Of a stretch of 64,000 bases of DNA, positions 5,515-30,541 are shown in pieces. Made by a program: the position numbers and the translations under genes. The DNA is from Micromonospora sp. NBC_01796 (GTDB lineage Bacteria; Actinomycetota; Actinomycetes; Mycobacteriales; Micromonosporaceae): the NCBI RefSeq assembly GCF_035917455.1, contig NZ_CP109078.1, positions 3,782,001 to 3,846,000 on the forward strand, given 5' to 3'. The notes below the pieces were generated by a model. It was not told the origin of the DNA. It worked only from the letters and a program-made list of their open reading frames with translations, and made no database searches. Numbering within the stretch: position 1 is the stretch's first letter; the number at the start of each line of letters is the position of its first letter.

Positions 5515-5641
5515 GGCGGCAAGTCTACGCACCCGCGCGTCTATGTGATCTTGGTCACCGGTCGGACCGGACCGCCAGACTTCACCGCCCGGTCCAACCA
5601 ACGACATCCGCCGTTGGCACCGAAGCCTCACCGTCCTCGGC

Positions 5642-25524: not shown

Positions 25525-27165
25525 ATGGCGGACTTGTTCGAGGACTACCGCCTCGGCCCTGGATGGGACGAGATGTTCGGCGAGCCGGGCATGCCGCGGG
25601 AAACGTACGAGGCGTTGCACGCCACCCTGCAACCGCTGTCCAGCGTCGAGTTGGGCATCCGGGCCGAGGTGCTGGCCAGGGCGTTCCTCGACCAGGGCAT
25701 CACGTTCGCGCTCAAGGGCATCGAGCGGCCGTTCCCGCTCGACATCGTGCCGAGGATCATCGCCGCCGACCAGTGGCGGGTGGTCGAGGCCGGGGTGGCG
25801 CAGCGGGTCCGCACCCTGGAGGCGTTCCTGGCCGACATCTACGGTGCCGGCCAGGTGCTCGCCGACGGGGTGGTGCCGCGCCGGATCGTGGTGACCAGCG
25901 CGCATTTCCACCGCGAGGTCGCCGGGGTCAACCCACACAACGGCGTACGCATCCACGTCGCCGGGGTCGACCTGGTCCGCGATGAGCAGGGCACGTTCCG
26001 GGTGCTGGAGGACAACGTACGGGTTCCCTCCGGGGTCAGTTACGTGATGGAGAACCGGCGGGCGATGGCTCACGTACTGCCCGAGGTCTTCGCCGCCACC
26101 CGGATCCAGCCGGTCGAGTCGTACCCCGGGCAGTTGTTGCGGGCCCTGCGCGCCGCGGCCCCGGTCGGTGTCAGCGAGCCCACGGTGGTGGTCCTCACCC
26201 CAGGCGTGCACAACTCCGCCTACTTCGAGCACGCCCTGCTCGCCCGCGAGATGGGCGTCGAGCTGGTCGAGGGTCGGGACCTGGTCTGTGTGGGTAACGA
26301 GGTAGCCATGCGGACCACCGCGGGTGAACAACGCGTCGACGTCATCTACCGGCGGATCGACGACGACTTCCTCGACCCGGTGCACTTCCGGGCCGACTCG
26401 GTGATCGGCGTGGCCGGGCTGCTCAACGCCGCCCGTGCCGGTCGGGTCACCATCGCCAACGCGGTCGGCAACGGCGTCGCCGACGACAAGCTGCTCTACA
26501 CGTACGTGCCCGAGCTGATCCGCTACTACCTGGACGAGGAGCCGATCCTGCCCAACGTGGAGACCTACCGGCTGGAGGAACCGGACGTGCTCGACCACGT
26601 CCTCGACCGGCTCGACCAGTTGGTGCTCAAGCCGGTCGACGGCTCCGGGGGCGCCGGCATCGTGATCGGCTCCCAGGCGAGCGACGAGGAACTGTCCCTG
26701 CTCGCCGAGAAGGTACGGCACGACCCGCGCGGCTGGATCGCCCAGCGCGAGGTCGCCCTGTCCATGGTGCCGACCCTGGTCGGCAACCGGCTGCGGGCCC
26801 GGCACGTGGACCTGCGACCGTTCGCGGTCAACGACGGCGAACGGGTCACCGTCCTGCCCGGCGGGCTGACCCGGGTGGCGCTGCCGGAGGGCGCGCTGGT
26901 GGTCAACTCCAGCCAGGGCGGGGGGTCGAAGGACACCTGGGTGCTCGCCGAGGCGCCGGTCGCCGCGATCACGGTCGGCGGCCCGGTCGAAACACCGCCG
27001 GCCGTCTACCTCGCCCCCGACGAACCCGCCGGAGCGGGTGCGTCCACCGGCACCAGCGTGCCGGCGCCGCGCAGCCCCGACCCCGGCCCGGACTCCGGTC
27101 CGGTCGCCGTGCAGCAGCAACAGCAGCAGCAGTCCGCCCGGATCGACGGGGCAGTGTCATGCTGA
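25525..27165 (+). CDS. Circularly permuted type 2 ATP-grasp protein
   Basis: This 546-aa protein has the circularly permuted ATP-grasp layout: FALKGIERPFPLDIVPRIIA near residues 57-76, VLEDNVRVPSGVSYVMENR near 160, then LVLKPVDGSGGAGIVIGSQA (nucleotide loop) near 370-390. RARHVDLRPFAV lies at about 425. The C terminus is a Pro/Gly-rich tail ending in a seven-Gln run. The gene overlaps the alpha-E gene by 7 bases. The family is predicted to form an amide bond in a peptide-like product with ATP; the product is unknown. Confidence 0.93.
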   Translation: MADLFEDYRLGPGWDEMFGEPGMPRETYEALHATLQPLSSVELGIRAEVLARAFLDQGITFALKGIERPFPLDIVPRIIAADQWRVVEAGVAQRVRTLEAFLADIYGAGQVLADGVVPRRIVVTSAHFHREVAGVNPHNGVRIHVAGVDLVRDEQGTFRVLEDNVRVPSGVSYVMENRRAMAHVLPEVFAATRIQPVESYPGQLLRALRAAAPVGVSEPTVVVLTPGVHNSAYFEHALLAREMGVELVEGRDLVCVGNEVAMRTTAGEQRVDVIYRRIDDDFLDPVHFRADSVIGVAGLLNAARAGRVTIANAVGNGVADDKLLYTYVPELIRYYLDEEPILPNVETYRLEEPDVLDHVLDRLDQLVLKPVDGSGGAGIVIGSQASDEELSLLAEKVRHDPRGWIAQREVALSMVPTLVGNRLRARHVDLRPFAVNDGERVTVLPGGLTRVALPEGALVVNSSQGGGSKDTWVLAEAPVAAITVGGPVETPPAVYLAPDEPAGAGASTGTSVPAPRSPDPGPDSGPVAVQQQQQQQSARIDGAVSC

Positions 27166-28115
27166 GCCGGATCGCGGAGTCGCTCTACTGGATCGGCCGG
27201 TACGTCGAGCGGGCCGAGGACACCGCCCGCATCCTCGACGTACACCTGCACCGGATGCTCGCCGACCCGTGGGCCGACGAGGAGACCGCCTGCCGTTCAC
27301 TGCTCGCCGTGATGGGCGTACCGCCACCGGAGCAGCCGGTCTCCGCCGCCCGGGTGGTCGGCCTGCTCGGCCTGGACGAGAGCAGCCACAGCTCGGTGGT
27401 GGGTGCGCTCGCCGCTGCCCGGGAGAACGCCCGTGGGGCCAGGGAGACCATCTCCGCCGACATGTGGGAAGGGCTCAACGCCACCTGGCACGGCCTGCCC
27501 GACGCCCGTCGCCGGGTCGAGCAGCAGGGCGTACACGCCTTCTTCCGCTGGGTACGCGAACGCTGCGCCCTGCTCGCCGGGCTCGCCGACGCCACCATGA
27601 GCCGGGACGAGGGCTGGCTGTTCCTGGTCCTCGGCCGCAGCGTGGAAAGGGTCGACATGACCGCCCGGCTGCTCTCCACCCACGTACGCGCCGGCGGCAG
27701 CATCCCGTCCTGGCTGACCCTGCTGCGTTCGTGCGGCGCCTGGGAGACGTTCCTGCGCACCTACCGTGGCTCGCTCGACGACCGGTACGCCGCCGAGTTC
27801 CTCCTGCTCGACCGCCTCTTCCCGCGCTCGGTCTTCGCCGCCCTGTCGGCCGCCGAGGCGTGCCTGACCGACCTCGAACCGACCGGTGGGCCCGGCGGCC
27901 AGCCGGGTCGGGTCGGTGTCGCCACCGAGGCGCAGCGGATCGTGGGTCGGGCCAGGACCAACCTGGAATTCCGGGGCGCGGAGGAACTCCTGGCCGACTT
28001 CCCGAGCGTGCTGGCCAGCCTCGAACGCACCTGTTCACAGGTGAACGAGGCGGTCTCGCGCCGCTACTTCCGCCAGACCTCGGCGGTCCTGTGGGTCCCG
28101 GAGGCAGTGGCATGA
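27159..28115 (+). CDS. Alpha-E domain-containing protein
   Basis: This 318-aa all-helical protein begins MLSRIAESLYWIGRYVERAE, the signature start of the alpha-E domain, followed by ARENARGARETISADMWEGL and a second repeat unit with LRTYRGSLDDRYAAEFLLLD. It is the middle gene of the ATP-grasp/alpha-E/transglutaminase operon and overlaps the first gene. Family knowledge links alpha-E proteins to a peptide-modification system, but no biochemical activity is assigned. Confidence 0.93.
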   Translation: MLSRIAESLYWIGRYVERAEDTARILDVHLHRMLADPWADEETACRSLLAVMGVPPPEQPVSAARVVGLLGLDESSHSSVVGALAAARENARGARETISADMWEGLNATWHGLPDARRRVEQQGVHAFFRWVRERCALLAGLADATMSRDEGWLFLVLGRSVERVDMTARLLSTHVRAGGSIPSWLTLLRSCGAWETFLRTYRGSLDDRYAAEFLLLDRLFPRSVFAALSAAEACLTDLEPTGGPGGQPGRVGVATEAQRIVGRARTNLEFRGAEELLADFPSVLASLERTCSQVNEAVSRRYFRQTSAVLWVPEAVA

Positions 28116-28137
28116 GGGCAGCACCGGAGGAAGCCGC

Positions 28138-29001
28138 GTGAGCGTCAACAGTTGGCGATTGAAGATCATCCACCGGACCGGGTTCAGTTACGCCGGCAAG
28201 GTCGCGTCCTCGTACAACGAGGCCCGGATGTCGCCCCGCAACGAGACCCGCCAGGCGGTGCTCGACGCCCGGGTGGAGGTGTGGCCGTCCGCCAGGACCT
28301 ACCGGTACGAGGACTACTGGGGCACCTCGGTCACCGCGTTCGACGTACACAGCGCGCACGAGGCGCTGCGGGTCACCGCCGCCTCGACGGTGGAGACCCT
28401 GCCCGCGGGTGACCTGCTCCCGCCCACCGGCGGCGCGACCTGGGCCGATCTGGCCCGGCCCGAACACGTCGACCGGTGGCACGAACTGCTGCTGCCGACC
28501 CCGCGTACCGCCCTGGATGAGGAACTGACCGCGCTGGCCGAGATCGCCCGCGCCGGTCACCCCACCCCGCACGCCACCGCGCTGGCGCTCTGCGAGCAGA
28601 TCCGCGACGAGGTGGCGTACACGGCCGGGGCGACCGGCGTACAGACCGACGCGGTGCAGGCGTGGCGCCAGCGCAAGGGCGTCTGCCAGGACATCAGCCA
28701 CCTGCTGGTGGGACTGCTCCGGTCGGCCGGCATCCCCTCCCGCTACGTCTCCGGTTACCTGCACCCGTCGCCGTCGGCGAGCATCGGGGAGAGCGTCGTC
28801 GGTCAGAGCCACGCCTGGGTGGAGTGGTGGGTCGGCCGGTGGACCGGCTTCGACCCCACCAACGGCATCCCGATCGGCGAGCGGCACGTCGTGGTCGGGC
28901 GGGGCCGGGAGTACGGCGACGTACCGCCGCTCAAGGGCGTCTACTCCGGTCCGAAGAACACCGGCCAGGGCGTGGAGGTCACCATCACCCGGCTGCGGTG
29001 A
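28138..29001 (+). CDS. Transglutaminase-like family protein
   Basis: This 287-aa protein starts at GTG 28138 (MSVNSWRLKIIHRTGFSYAG), an N-terminal beta region typical of bacterial transglutaminase-like proteins. It carries the Cys-His-Asp triad in GVCQDISHLLVGLLRSAGIP, SHAWVEWWVG and FDPTNG. It is the third gene of the operon, 22 bases after the alpha-E stop. It may act as a peptidase or amide-exchanging enzyme on the product of the ATP-grasp enzyme. Both ideas are inference. Confidence 0.93.
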   Translation: MSVNSWRLKIIHRTGFSYAGKVASSYNEARMSPRNETRQAVLDARVEVWPSARTYRYEDYWGTSVTAFDVHSAHEALRVTAASTVETLPAGDLLPPTGGATWADLARPEHVDRWHELLLPTPRTALDEELTALAEIARAGHPTPHATALALCEQIRDEVAYTAGATGVQTDAVQAWRQRKGVCQDISHLLVGLLRSAGIPSRYVSGYLHPSPSASIGESVVGQSHAWVEWWVGRWTGFDPTNGIPIGERHVVVGRGREYGDVPPLKGVYSGPKNTGQGVEVTITRLR

Positions 29002-29050
29002 GGGCAAATGTGGGTGCGGTGGGTGCCGAGGGCGGCGTAACCTCCCCGGC

Positions 29051-29107
29051 ATGCAGCATTTCGTGGCAGTGACGACGACGCCGGGACACCCCGGCGTGCC
29101 GCGCTGA
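29051..29107 (+). CDS. Putative threonine leader peptide of a transcription attenuator
   Basis: This 18-codon ORF encodes MQHFVAVTTTPGHPGVPR, with three consecutive Thr codons (ACG at 29072-29080). A 7-bp hairpin (29079-29085 with 29090-29096) overlaps the last Thr codon, and a terminator-like hairpin follows at 29134-29158. The next gene is a threonyl-tRNA synthetase. Low charged Thr-tRNA would stall the ribosome on the triplet and change the fold. This is inferred from sequence logic; it is too short for statistical ORF detection. Confidence 0.6.
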   Translation: MQHFVAVTTTPGHPGVPR

Positions 29108-29158
29108 CGCGAATTTCTCACCGTCAACCAACGGCCCCGGGGCGAACCGCTCCGGGGC
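29079..29158 (+). promoter_or_regulatory. Threonine attenuator: mutually exclusive hairpins
   Basis: Segment 1 (CGCCGGG, 29079-29085) pairs with segment 2 (CCCGGCG, 29090-29096). Segment 3 (GCCCCGG, 29134-29140) pairs with segment 4 (CCGGGGC, 29152-29158) as a terminator-like stem. The CCCCGG within segment 2 can also pair with CCGGGG in segment 4, so the two states exclude each other. A stalled ribosome on the Thr codons would cover segment 1. The tail after the stem is not a strong U tract, as is common in high-GC actinobacteria. Confidence 0.55.
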
Positions 29159-29251
29159 TGCTTCGTACTCCGGACCGGTCCGCTCCGACCGGTCCACTCG
29201 ATTGACACGGGTGGCCGGGCTCAGGGTCGTACCCGAGTCAGGAGCATGGAC

Positions 29252-30454
29252 ATGGTCGACCACCGCAGGTTGGGCCGCGAACTGGAGCTGTTCCACGCCG
29301 ACCCCCTCTCCGGCGCGGGCCTGCCGATCTGGCTACCGGCCGGCGCCGCCGCCCGGCACGCCGTCGAGGAGTACGTCCGCGAGCTGGAGCGGCGGGCCGG
29401 CTACCAGCACGTCTACTCGCCCCCGATGGGCAAACGGGAGCTGTTCGAACGGTCGGGACACCTCGGCTACTTCGCCGACGACATGTTCCCGCCGATGCGC
29501 CTCTCCGACGACGACGAGTTCGTCCTCCGGCCGGCGCTCTGCCCGCACCACTGCCTCGTCTTCGCCGCCCGCGGCCGGTCGTACCGCGAGTTGCCGCTGC
29601 GCATCGGTGAGCTGGGCGGGATGTACCGGCCGGAGCGGTCCGGGGTGCTCGGCGGCCTGAGCCGGGTACGCGCGATCTGGCTCAACGACGCGCACAACTT
29701 CTGCGCCCTGGAGCAGGTCGGCGACGAGGTCGCCGAGATCCTCGGACTGATCCGGACCGCGCACGCCGCGCTCGGCGTACGCCCGGCCGGGTTCCGGCTG
29801 TCGCTGCGCGGACCGGGCGAGAAGTACGTCGGCGACGACGACGTGTGGGAGCGGGCGGAGAACCTGCTCCGGGAGGCGCTCGACGCGGCCGGGCAGCCGT
29901 ACGTCGAGGCGGCCGGGGAGGCGGCGTTCTACGGGCCGAAGATCGACATCCAGATCCAGGATCCGGCCGGGCGGGAGTCAACCCTCTCCACCATCCAGCT
30001 CGACTTCGACAAGGCGGAGAAGTTCGATCTGTCCTACATGGACTCCGATGGTCGGCCCCGTCGACCGGTGATCGTGCACCGGAGCCTGGTCGGCAGCATG
30101 GAGCGGCTGTTCGCGTACCTGATCGAGGTGCACGAGGGGGCGTTTCCCGCCTGGTACGCCCCGGTGCAGTTGGAGGTGCTCCCGATCGGCCCGGAGCAGT
30201 ACGAGGTCGCGGCGGCCTTCACCCGTACCGCCGTGGAGGCGGGCCTTCGGGCGGAACTCGCCCCCGACGGGTCGCTGGGCGCCCGCGTACGCGCCTCGGC
30301 CCGCCGCCGGGTCCCGTACGCCGCCGTGATCGGCCCCCGCGAGGCAGCCGAGAACCTGGTCTCGCTGCGCCTCCGCGACGGCCAAGCCCTCGACCCCATC
30401 CCGGCGCCCGAAGCCCTCACCCTCATCACCACCGCCGTCTCCCCCCTCCCCTGA
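29252..30454 (+). CDS. Threonyl-tRNA synthetase lacking the TGS and editing domains
   Basis: This 400-aa protein is a class II synthetase core with anticodon-binding domain. Motif 2 reads GGMYRPERSGVLGGLSRVR, and the zinc ligands are kept (Cys in CPHH, His in NDAHNFC, His in VHRSLVGSMERLF). The ATP site FYGPKIDIQIQDPAGRESTL is present. It lacks the roughly 240-residue N-terminal TGS/editing region of normal ThrRS (about 640 aa), so it is probably a second copy. The ATG at 29252 has AGGAG 7 bases upstream; the ATG at 29246 is too close to it. Duplicate ThrRS genes sometimes protect producers of ThrRS inhibitors. Confidence 0.92.
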   Translation: MVDHRRLGRELELFHADPLSGAGLPIWLPAGAAARHAVEEYVRELERRAGYQHVYSPPMGKRELFERSGHLGYFADDMFPPMRLSDDDEFVLRPALCPHHCLVFAARGRSYRELPLRIGELGGMYRPERSGVLGGLSRVRAIWLNDAHNFCALEQVGDEVAEILGLIRTAHAALGVRPAGFRLSLRGPGEKYVGDDDVWERAENLLREALDAAGQPYVEAAGEAAFYGPKIDIQIQDPAGRESTLSTIQLDFDKAEKFDLSYMDSDGRPRRPVIVHRSLVGSMERLFAYLIEVHEGAFPAWYAPVQLEVLPIGPEQYEVAAAFTRTAVEAGLRAELAPDGSLGARVRASARRRVPYAAVIGPREAAENLVSLRLRDGQALDPIPAPEALTLITTAVSPLP

Positions 30455-30483: not shown

Positions 30484-30541
30484 CTCTTGTAGAGAAAGAG
30501 GTGGAATCCAAGGCGGAATTCCCACACTTTCTCTACAAGAG
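30484..30541. terminator. 15-bp hairpin with CTCTTGTAGAGAAAG arms
   Basis: The arm CTCTTGTAGAGAAAG at 30484-30498 and its exact complement at 30527-30541 enclose a 28-base loop. AAGATC and GATCTT outside them (30474-30479 and 30545-30550) extend the stem after a small bulge. It follows the ThrRS gene and precedes the TetR gene. A related hairpin is found at 60674-60728. Confidence 0.75.

Follow-up and report, generated by a model that had tools for sequence, protein, structure and literature searches.

In the window analyzed here, a 64,000-nucleotide stretch of the Micromonospora sp. NBC_01796 genome, a gene for a short threonyl-tRNA synthetase (ThrRS2, thrS2-like) is preceded by an open reading frame (ORF) for an 18-codon leader peptide, MQHFVAVTTTPGHPGVPR, that contains three adjacent threonine codons. 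The leader was confirmed as a real feature, and its conservation makes it very likely that it is functional. We consider it probable that the leader and the RNA behind it form a ribosome-mediated attenuator, which would switch on a back-up, editing-less ThrRS2 when charged tRNA-Thr is in short supply. This threonine-sensing reading is well supported by comparative sequence analysis. As to its read-out, control of translation, possibly combined with control of transcription, is more probable than a classical terminator. An initial annotation, made from the sequence of the window, had proposed a threonine attenuator in front of ThrRS; leader, threonine run, alternative hairpins, and duplicate ThrRS held up on closer analysis; a classical terminator switch was not supported. 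Coordinates of all features are given in Table 1. Papers identified by PMC numbers are cited for the passages concerned.

Table 1. Features of the leader region and ThrRS2 gene in the window.
Feature	Position	Strand	Remarks
WblC/WhiB7-like box CAAATG	29005–29010	+	3 bp upstream of −35; published GAAAWY not matched exactly
−35 element GTGCGG	29014–29019	+	18 bp from −10; conserved T-G-C-G block
−10 element TAACCT (TANNNT)	29038–29043	+	7 nt before leader ATG
Leader peptide ORF MQHFVAVTTTPGHPGVPR	29051–29107	+	18 codons; ATG 29051, stop TGA 29105–29107; read directly
Threonine codon run ACG ACG ACG	29072–29080	+	Proposed sensor; read directly
Hairpin 1:2	29078–29085 with 29090–29097	+	Inside leader ORF
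Hairpin 3:4	29132–29144 with 29148–29160	+	Terminator-like, without U-tract
Segment 3b	29138–29149	+	Spans 5' arm and loop of 3:4; can pair with segment 5 instead
Segment 5	29176–29187	+	Partner of 3b or of the ThrRS ribosome-binding site
Shine-Dalgarno sequence AGGAG of short ThrRS	29240–29244	+	Upstream of likely start ATG 29252
Short threonyl-tRNA synthetase (ThrRS2)	29252–30454	+	400 aa; catalytic and anticodon-binding domains

Conservation of the Threonine Leader

Relatives were gathered by the short ThrRS protein alone, without use of the leader. The 212 loci inspected comprised 177 that were used, 16 duplicates, one locus cut by a contig end (L102), and 18 loci that were not of the short type. 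Of the latter, 16 were long-form thrS loci; the other two, from Pseudomonadales (L063 and L064), were 39–40% identical, carried no leader, and were excluded. A leader encoding TTTP behind a TANNNT box was found in 173 of the 177 non-redundant actinobacterial short-ThrRS loci, compared with 0 of 3460 instances of block-shuffled upstream DNA. The four exceptions had NTTP (L044), TTAP (L136), TTTP without TANNNT (L137), or no leader (L150). Conservation of the leader and of its threonine codons in homologous regions, on which the initial annotation had made its proposal depend, is borne out by these numbers.

A short ThrRS was encoded in 48 genomes, from five families, in a class-wide sample of 296 (E < 1e-138, next match 3e-109), and in 64 of 101 genomes of the organism's own family (E ≤ 1.1e-114), with a fragment in one more (G502). 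The leader search in the own family covered 30 of these 64 ThrRS2 genes. By synthetase protein, Plantactinospora and Micromonospora were the closest named relatives. An RNA covariance model that combines the leader with hairpin 3:4 (R1), and which was built partly from sequences later searched and was used with stricter filters, scored 58–92 bits in 45 of the 296 class genomes, namely 44 of the 48 with ThrRS2 and one orphan (G234); none of its other matches in these genomes exceeded 44 bits. ThrRS2 genomes without a strong R1 match involved either contig edges (G292, G152) or divergent sequences (G200, G209); both divergent genomes still carry leaders (L164, L163), and G209 showed a weak R1 match at ThrRS2. 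In the orphan (L327, G234:C18), the threonine leader and hairpin 3:4 lie approximately 100 bases from the contig end, and the stretch behind this leader copy does not read as a ThrRS start.

Long-form thrS loci, scanned over the whole locus and on two strands, yielded a TTTP leader behind TANNNT in 1 case out of 39 (L208, G482). A second long-form thrS with a TTTP leader, MARVFWSTTTPGISRRLSLAR, was detected by covariance search (L322, G241). Behind each of these leaders lies a 3:4-like hairpin, and its 5' arm is, as judged by eye, complementary to a downstream sequence (GGGAGCGG with CCGCTCCC in L208; GGGAGCG with CGCTCCC in L322). No short ThrRS match for these two genomes was found among the matches listed.

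Codon choice in the leaders deviated from that of neighboring genes. In 173 leaders, ACG accounted for 468 of the 519 codons of the threonine run, as compared with 33 of 184 threonine codons in eight genes of the window, where ACC was dominant; in Micromonosporaceae leaders, the first codon of the run was often ACC. Among 30 tRNA loci examined in the genome, tRNA-Thr anticodons CGU, UGU, and GGU were represented. The codons GTC CCG GCG CGC TGA of segment 2 were invariant, third positions included, in 76 TTTP[ED]xVPAR leaders, which favors selection on the RNA. A second block, M[KQ]RA, recurred in many leaders. In the 8.56-Mb genome, the pattern ACNACNACNCCGGN5CCCGGC occurred once, at the leader locus.

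Alternative Pairings Behind the Leader

The region 29051–29163 showed a predicted folding energy of −63 kcal/mol, as compared with −43.6 kcal/mol (standard deviation 3.8) for shuffled versions, none of 200 of which was as good. In line with the initial annotation, the threonine codons adjoin segment 1, and hairpin 1:2 overlaps the codon run. Segments 3b and 5 can form a helix of 11 bp (duplex energy −19.9 kcal/mol), which could replace hairpin 3:4 or make a pseudoknot with its lower stem. Alternatively, 29173–29186 can pair with 29241–29257, which covers GGAG of the Shine-Dalgarno sequence (SD) and most of the start codon. In the window, segment 5 is separated from the SD by approximately 50 nt in which two additional local hairpins can form (29188–29238); this stretch is also present in the near relatives L211 and L212 and missing from the Micromonospora rows of an alignment termed A3.

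Pairs were counted on an alignment (A2) of 64 TTTP[ED] relatives, with 17 of 81 left out for unusual spacing. The 92 other leaders, mostly from Micromonosporaceae, lay outside this column-wise counting and were included in the accessibility and permutation tests. Of the alignment cells for hairpin 3:4, 91.2% were paired; two-sided changes affected 7 pairs and 22 cells. For helix 3b:5, 96.0% of cells were paired, against 43–59% in slid controls, and 25 cells were changed on both sides, against 8.5 in shuffles (0 of 500 as high). The helix between segment 5 and the SD (5:SD, also termed 5:6), whose register varies, was paired in 79.8% of cells in fixed columns, with 16 cells changed on both sides (shuffles 9.7; 8 of 500 as high).

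In an alignment-free permutation test with sequence-anchored hairpins, 3b:5 and 5:SD each scored better than all 200 re-pairings (n = 94, 58, and 30); 8 of 174 loci without a recognizable core were skipped, as they were in the accessibility test. An earlier permutation test (real pairs −14.69 versus −12.64, standard deviation 0.20, n = 116) used a hairpin finder that took 3b:5 or another helix for 3:4 in some loci (L099, L206), and the test was therefore repeated with the sequence-anchored definition. With RNAalifold, a mixed alignment (A1) yielded 11 pairs only, probably because spacing differs between groups; group-wise alignments and the alignment-free tests were used in its place. Together, these analyses support mutually exclusive pairings (1:2, 3:4, 3b:5, and 5:SD), with covariation in 3:4 and 3b:5; alternative hairpins with compensatory changes agree with the initial annotation.

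No Rfam family reached its gathering score in the window, so that a T-box model was without match, and no Rfam matches were found near the leader in five relatives. At relaxed thresholds, a weak match to a small RNA was obtained (13.1 bits versus a gathering score of 45) and rejected. A cobalamin riboswitch was observed at 5616–5762 of L059, on the minus strand, near a Streptomyces thrS2 locus.

Strong helices arise readily in GC-rich upstream regions, as the shuffle control indicated, and the leader might accordingly be viewed as a leaderless upstream ORF followed by stable hairpins of ordinary GC-rich DNA, with no threonine regulation at all. This explanation is hardly credible in view of the occurrence of the leader at 173 of 177 loci in five families, its presence in just 1 of 39 long-form thrS loci (L208, with G241 added by the model search), and the covariation in 3b:5 and 3:4.

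A tRNA mimic on its own mRNA serves as the operator of Escherichia coli ThrRS. Autogenous control of a similar kind, in which ThrRS2 would bind the hairpins as a tRNA mimic and the leader ORF would be incidental, is very improbable: self-regulation of the E. coli enzyme (PMC2965389) and the helix that covers the SD are compatible with it, and the conserved feature of the family, a translated threonine run with invariant neighboring codons, speaks against it.

Predicted Accessibility of the Ribosome-Binding Site

Folds with enforced pairings were calculated for 165 of the 173 loci, with the SD scored as GGAG (29241–29244) in the window. Behind hairpin 3:4, predicted SD accessibility averaged 0.195, compared with 0.340 for shuffled upstream sequence, and was lower in 122 of 166 loci. 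Enforcing 3b:5 raised the mean from 0.202 to 0.428, with an increase in 109 and a decrease in 27 of 165 loci. In the window, accessibility was 0.00 without enforced pairs, 0.45 with 3b:5, and 0.27 with 2:3. These energy-model calculations support the end points of a translational switch, with the SD either paired or free.

Several observations weigh against such a switch or blunt the evidence for it. Loci are related by descent, and the counts given above are not independent. The 4 pairs of helix 3b:5 with changes on both sides were equalled by 54 of 500 shuffles, and two-sided changes in 5:SD were weak (5 pairs, shuffles 4.9). Some relatives had a predicted open SD (0.734 in L001, 0.525 in L211), and in the TTTP[ED] group enforcement of 3b:5 increased accessibility in 45 and decreased it in 23 of 87 loci. 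Enforcing 2:3 alone changed mean accessibility from 0.202 to 0.215; since the mean was left essentially unchanged, equilibrium folding does not predict the link from ribosome stalling to SD release. Release of the SD by 2:3 alone was thus not reproduced on average, and is kept here as a conjectural step. In addition, at least six 2:3 pairs appeared at 64 of 65 loci when folds were calculated for a stalled ribosome before segment 4, but also in 85% of segment 2 shuffles. Because shuffled segment 2 paired so often, 2:3 pairing provides no specific evidence, and the pair count was dropped.

The same pair count bears on a reading in terms of classical transcription attenuation, with hairpin 3:4 as a terminator that has little or no U-tract (perhaps assisted by NusG or Rho), 2:3 as antiterminator, and 5:SD as secondary. 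Attenuation of Streptomyces trpS1, the nearest precedent in that genus, described by Vecchione and Sello in 2010, is reportedly transcriptional. This mechanism would also fit the length and GC-rich make-up of the hairpin (−18 to −40 kcal/mol in 65 loci), the T-runs in a few relatives (CTTTTTC in L065; TTTTGTTCTT at the long-form thrS of G482), and the frequent 2:3 pairs. Nevertheless, we regard it as unlikely. A T-run of at least 4 within 15 nt behind 3:4 was detected in 6 of 165 loci only, thus being absent from 159, and none was present behind the hairpin in the window; the 2:3 count was reached by 85% of shuffled controls, as indicated above; and the match of segment 5 to both 3b and the SD would be left unexplained. 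A classical terminator switch is therefore not retained. The locus-specific pairings centred on the ThrRS ribosome-binding site suggest instead a translational read-out.

A Putative WblC-Type Promoter Upstream of the Leader

Promoter-like boxes directly precede the leader ATG. In 41 dereplicated loci, an A-A-A-W block at −32 to −29 and a T-G-C-G block at −23 to −20 were found, counted from the first base of the −10 element. AAAW was present in 105 of 173 loci and the exact sequence GAAAWY in 57 of 173, while control windows gave 1 of 173 each. Spacing between TANNNT and leader start was 6 nt in 85, 7 nt in 87, and 8 nt in 1 of the 173 loci, the TANNNT box having helped to choose the leader start. 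Based on this arrangement, the transcript is predicted to begin at or beside the leader ATG, that is, to be leaderless. A transcription start downstream of 29158, which the initial annotation had named as incompatible with its proposal, is disfavored by the position of these boxes.

The genome also carries a gene (G000:C1:3950998) for a WhiB-family protein that contains the AT-hook-like sequence RPRGRPRK and that we take to be WhiB7. Promoters activated by WblC consist of GAAAWY, 3 bp, a −35 element, 16–19 bp, and TANNNT, and Streptomyces coelicolor thrS2 is listed among WblC-activated genes (PMC7157823). The promoter blocks of the leaders resemble this published arrangement; in the window, the box reads CAAATG and the spacer is 18 bp.

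Such a promoter could also be taken to indicate that the leader senses mainly ribosome-targeting drugs that stall ribosomes at threonine/alanine contexts, as chloramphenicol- or oxazolidinone-like compounds might, rather than tRNA charging, with ThrRS2 as one of many products of the WblC regulon. Membership of thrS2 in that regulon (PMC7157823) and the M[KQ]RA block of many leaders, noted above, are in line with this explanation. We nonetheless judge it improbable, as the run is pure threonine and mostly ACG, strong model matches precede enzymes for threonine (the contig-edge orphan excepted), and TTTP leaders also stand in front of two long-form thrS genes.

The Short Threonyl-tRNA Synthetase

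The protein encoded behind the leader scored 417.4 bits with TIGR00418 (cut-off 383.65). Its Pfam domains were tRNA-synt_2b and HGTP_anticodon only; the TGS and editing domains of full-length bacterial ThrRS were not found by Pfam. The sequence could be aligned with solved ThrRS enzymes, including 1nyq, and its class II core, anticodon domain, and aligned Cys/His/His positions, which presumably correspond to the zinc ligands of the solved enzymes, fit a threonyl-tRNA synthetase. ATG 29252 is the likely start, as given in Table 1; another in-frame ATG, at 29246, lies 1 base from AGGAG, and L211 and L212, both near relatives, lack an ATG at this position. A second, long-form ThrRS, 43% identical to the short form, is encoded elsewhere in the same 8.56-Mb genome. 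The short enzyme is thus a duplicate, as initially annotated.

Proposed Mechanism

Comparison of sequences supports conservation of leader and threonine run, the promoter elements, hairpin 3:4, and the pairing of segment 5 with 3b and with the ribosome-binding site. From these elements we infer ribosome stalling, the step from 2:3 to 3b:5 that a stalled ribosome would favor, the direction of the switch, and a possible transcription cut-off as well. A WblC/WhiB7-type promoter would yield a transcript that starts at or next to the leader ATG, and the signal would be a shortage of charged tRNA-Thr, probably of the ACG-reading pool. When Thr-tRNA is plentiful, the ribosome would pass the three threonine codons, reach the stop codon, and cover segment 2, allowing 3:4 to form; segment 5 would then pair with the ribosome-binding site of ThrRS2, so that little enzyme would be made. 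When Thr-tRNA is scarce, a ribosome stalled on the threonine run would cover segment 1 and expose segment 2, which could compete for segment 3. Disturbance of 3:4 would make 3b:5 possible and free the ribosome-binding site. Segment 2 starts 17 nt past the first base of the first threonine codon. Given the size of the ribosome footprint, this geometry suits the switch: a ribosome on the threonine run leaves segment 2 free, and one at the stop codon covers it.

More tentatively, the system may be a two-input resistance switch that has been kept across five families. In this extended form, drug stress would increase transcription from the WblC/WhiB7 promoter, and the 3b/5/SD switch would release the ribosome-binding site of an editing-less ThrRS only when stalling on ACG threonine codons occurs as well. 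We regard this extension as possible, with the odds somewhat against it.

Relation to Known Leaders and Duplicate Synthetases

The nearest published counterpart is thrL of Streptomyces lividans TK24, a peptide MKRVRPFLETTPGFVPAR encoded before thrS that is leaderless and followed by one hairpin without a U-rich tract (PMC8079986, Table 4, 2021). It was published as one annotation, with two threonine codons and termination described as 'not clear' (PMC8079986). A leaderless start, predicted for the leader in the window, and a hairpin that lacks a U-tract in front of thrS are thus common to both; the section cited gives no comparison between genomes, SD switch, or WblC promoter (PMC8079986). The exact peptide MKRVRPFLETTPGFVPAR was found in 2 of 392 Streptomyces genomes (G423 and that of L291), and a short-ThrRS motif follows in both: in G423, 127 bases separate the end of the peptide from the short-ThrRS match, and in L291 it precedes a short ThrRS. 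Because the same peptide precedes short ThrRS in these two other genomes, S. lividans thrL is very probably a member of the short-ThrRS leader family, and SLIV_19410 would, judging from its leader, be a short-form ThrRS.

The E. coli pheST operon is controlled through a transcription terminator with a U-tract, and its enzyme is not known to be a duplicate, which distinguishes it from the system in the window. Ribosome-mediated attenuation of a synthetase operon, as in pheST (PMC1262725), is also what we propose for the window. Attenuators of trpS and leuS in Streptomyces, described by Seliverstov et al. (2005), likewise couple an aminoacyl-tRNA synthetase gene to an upstream leader peptide that contains cognate codons (PMC1262725); for threonine, the same account gives no synthetase attenuator, and for threonine operons no conserved RNA structure, in the passages cited (PMC1262725). 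Unlike the leader in the window, that of leuS has a hairpin followed by a stretch of uridines (PMC8079986). The LEU element of actinobacterial leuA resembles the present system in its cognate codon run, its pseudoknot or alternative hairpin, and its pairing with the Shine-Dalgarno sequence, but its SD partner is the run of leucine codons (PMC1262725). In the window, this role would fall to the downstream segment 5. An inducible second ThrRS is also known from Anabaena, whose duplicate T2 is induced by low zinc (PMC9437257), whereas ThrRS2 aligns with solved ThrRS enzymes at the presumed zinc-ligand positions and the signal proposed for it is a codon run.

Synthetase genes under leader attenuation are thus known, and with thrL already annotated (PMC8079986) the lack of precedent implied by the initial annotation does not stand. 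No other description of the conserved family, the SD switch, or the ACG bias was recognized among the matches listed, with subscription papers and preprints outside the scope. What appears to be new is how widely the leader is conserved, together with the three-way RNA switch, the WblC-type promoter, and the ACG bias.

Neighboring Features and an Additional Leader

Just upstream of the promoter, CP_ATPgrasp, Alpha-E, and transglutaminase-like genes are arranged in a row (25525–29001). Downstream of the ThrRS gene, an inverted repeat, CTCTTGTAGAGAAAG ... CTTTCTCTACAAGAG, occupies 30484–30541. A 15-mer of this repeat has 28 copies in the genome, 14 on each strand, and 12 of these form 6 opposite pairs 28 nt apart; the repeat resembles a miniature palindromic repeat family.

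In a separate locus (L325, G121:C79:2300–3600, approximately 310–500), a leader rich in Phe, Trp, and Tyr, MQRKFWRFYGYRPTGTVARRALR, was observed behind a TATAGT box. Next come a GC hairpin with a T-run and then a frame that contains MVIVMAPDATPDNIDGL and that we take to resemble DAHP synthase. This locus is a possible aromatic amino acid attenuator.

Implications

The present analysis places the single leader annotated in S. lividans in a regulatory family that is widely conserved and whose proposed mechanism can be put to the test, and offers a reason why a recognizable terminator is missing behind S. lividans thrL. The two-input switch, if true, would represent a case in which the ribosome mediates translational attenuation of a synthetase and the sensor is specific for one isoacceptor (ACG). 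As a natural reporter, the leader could be of use in actinobacteria to follow Thr-tRNA charging and to detect ThrRS inhibitors. The duplicate synthetase that it precedes may be tied to the WblC antibiotic-stress response.

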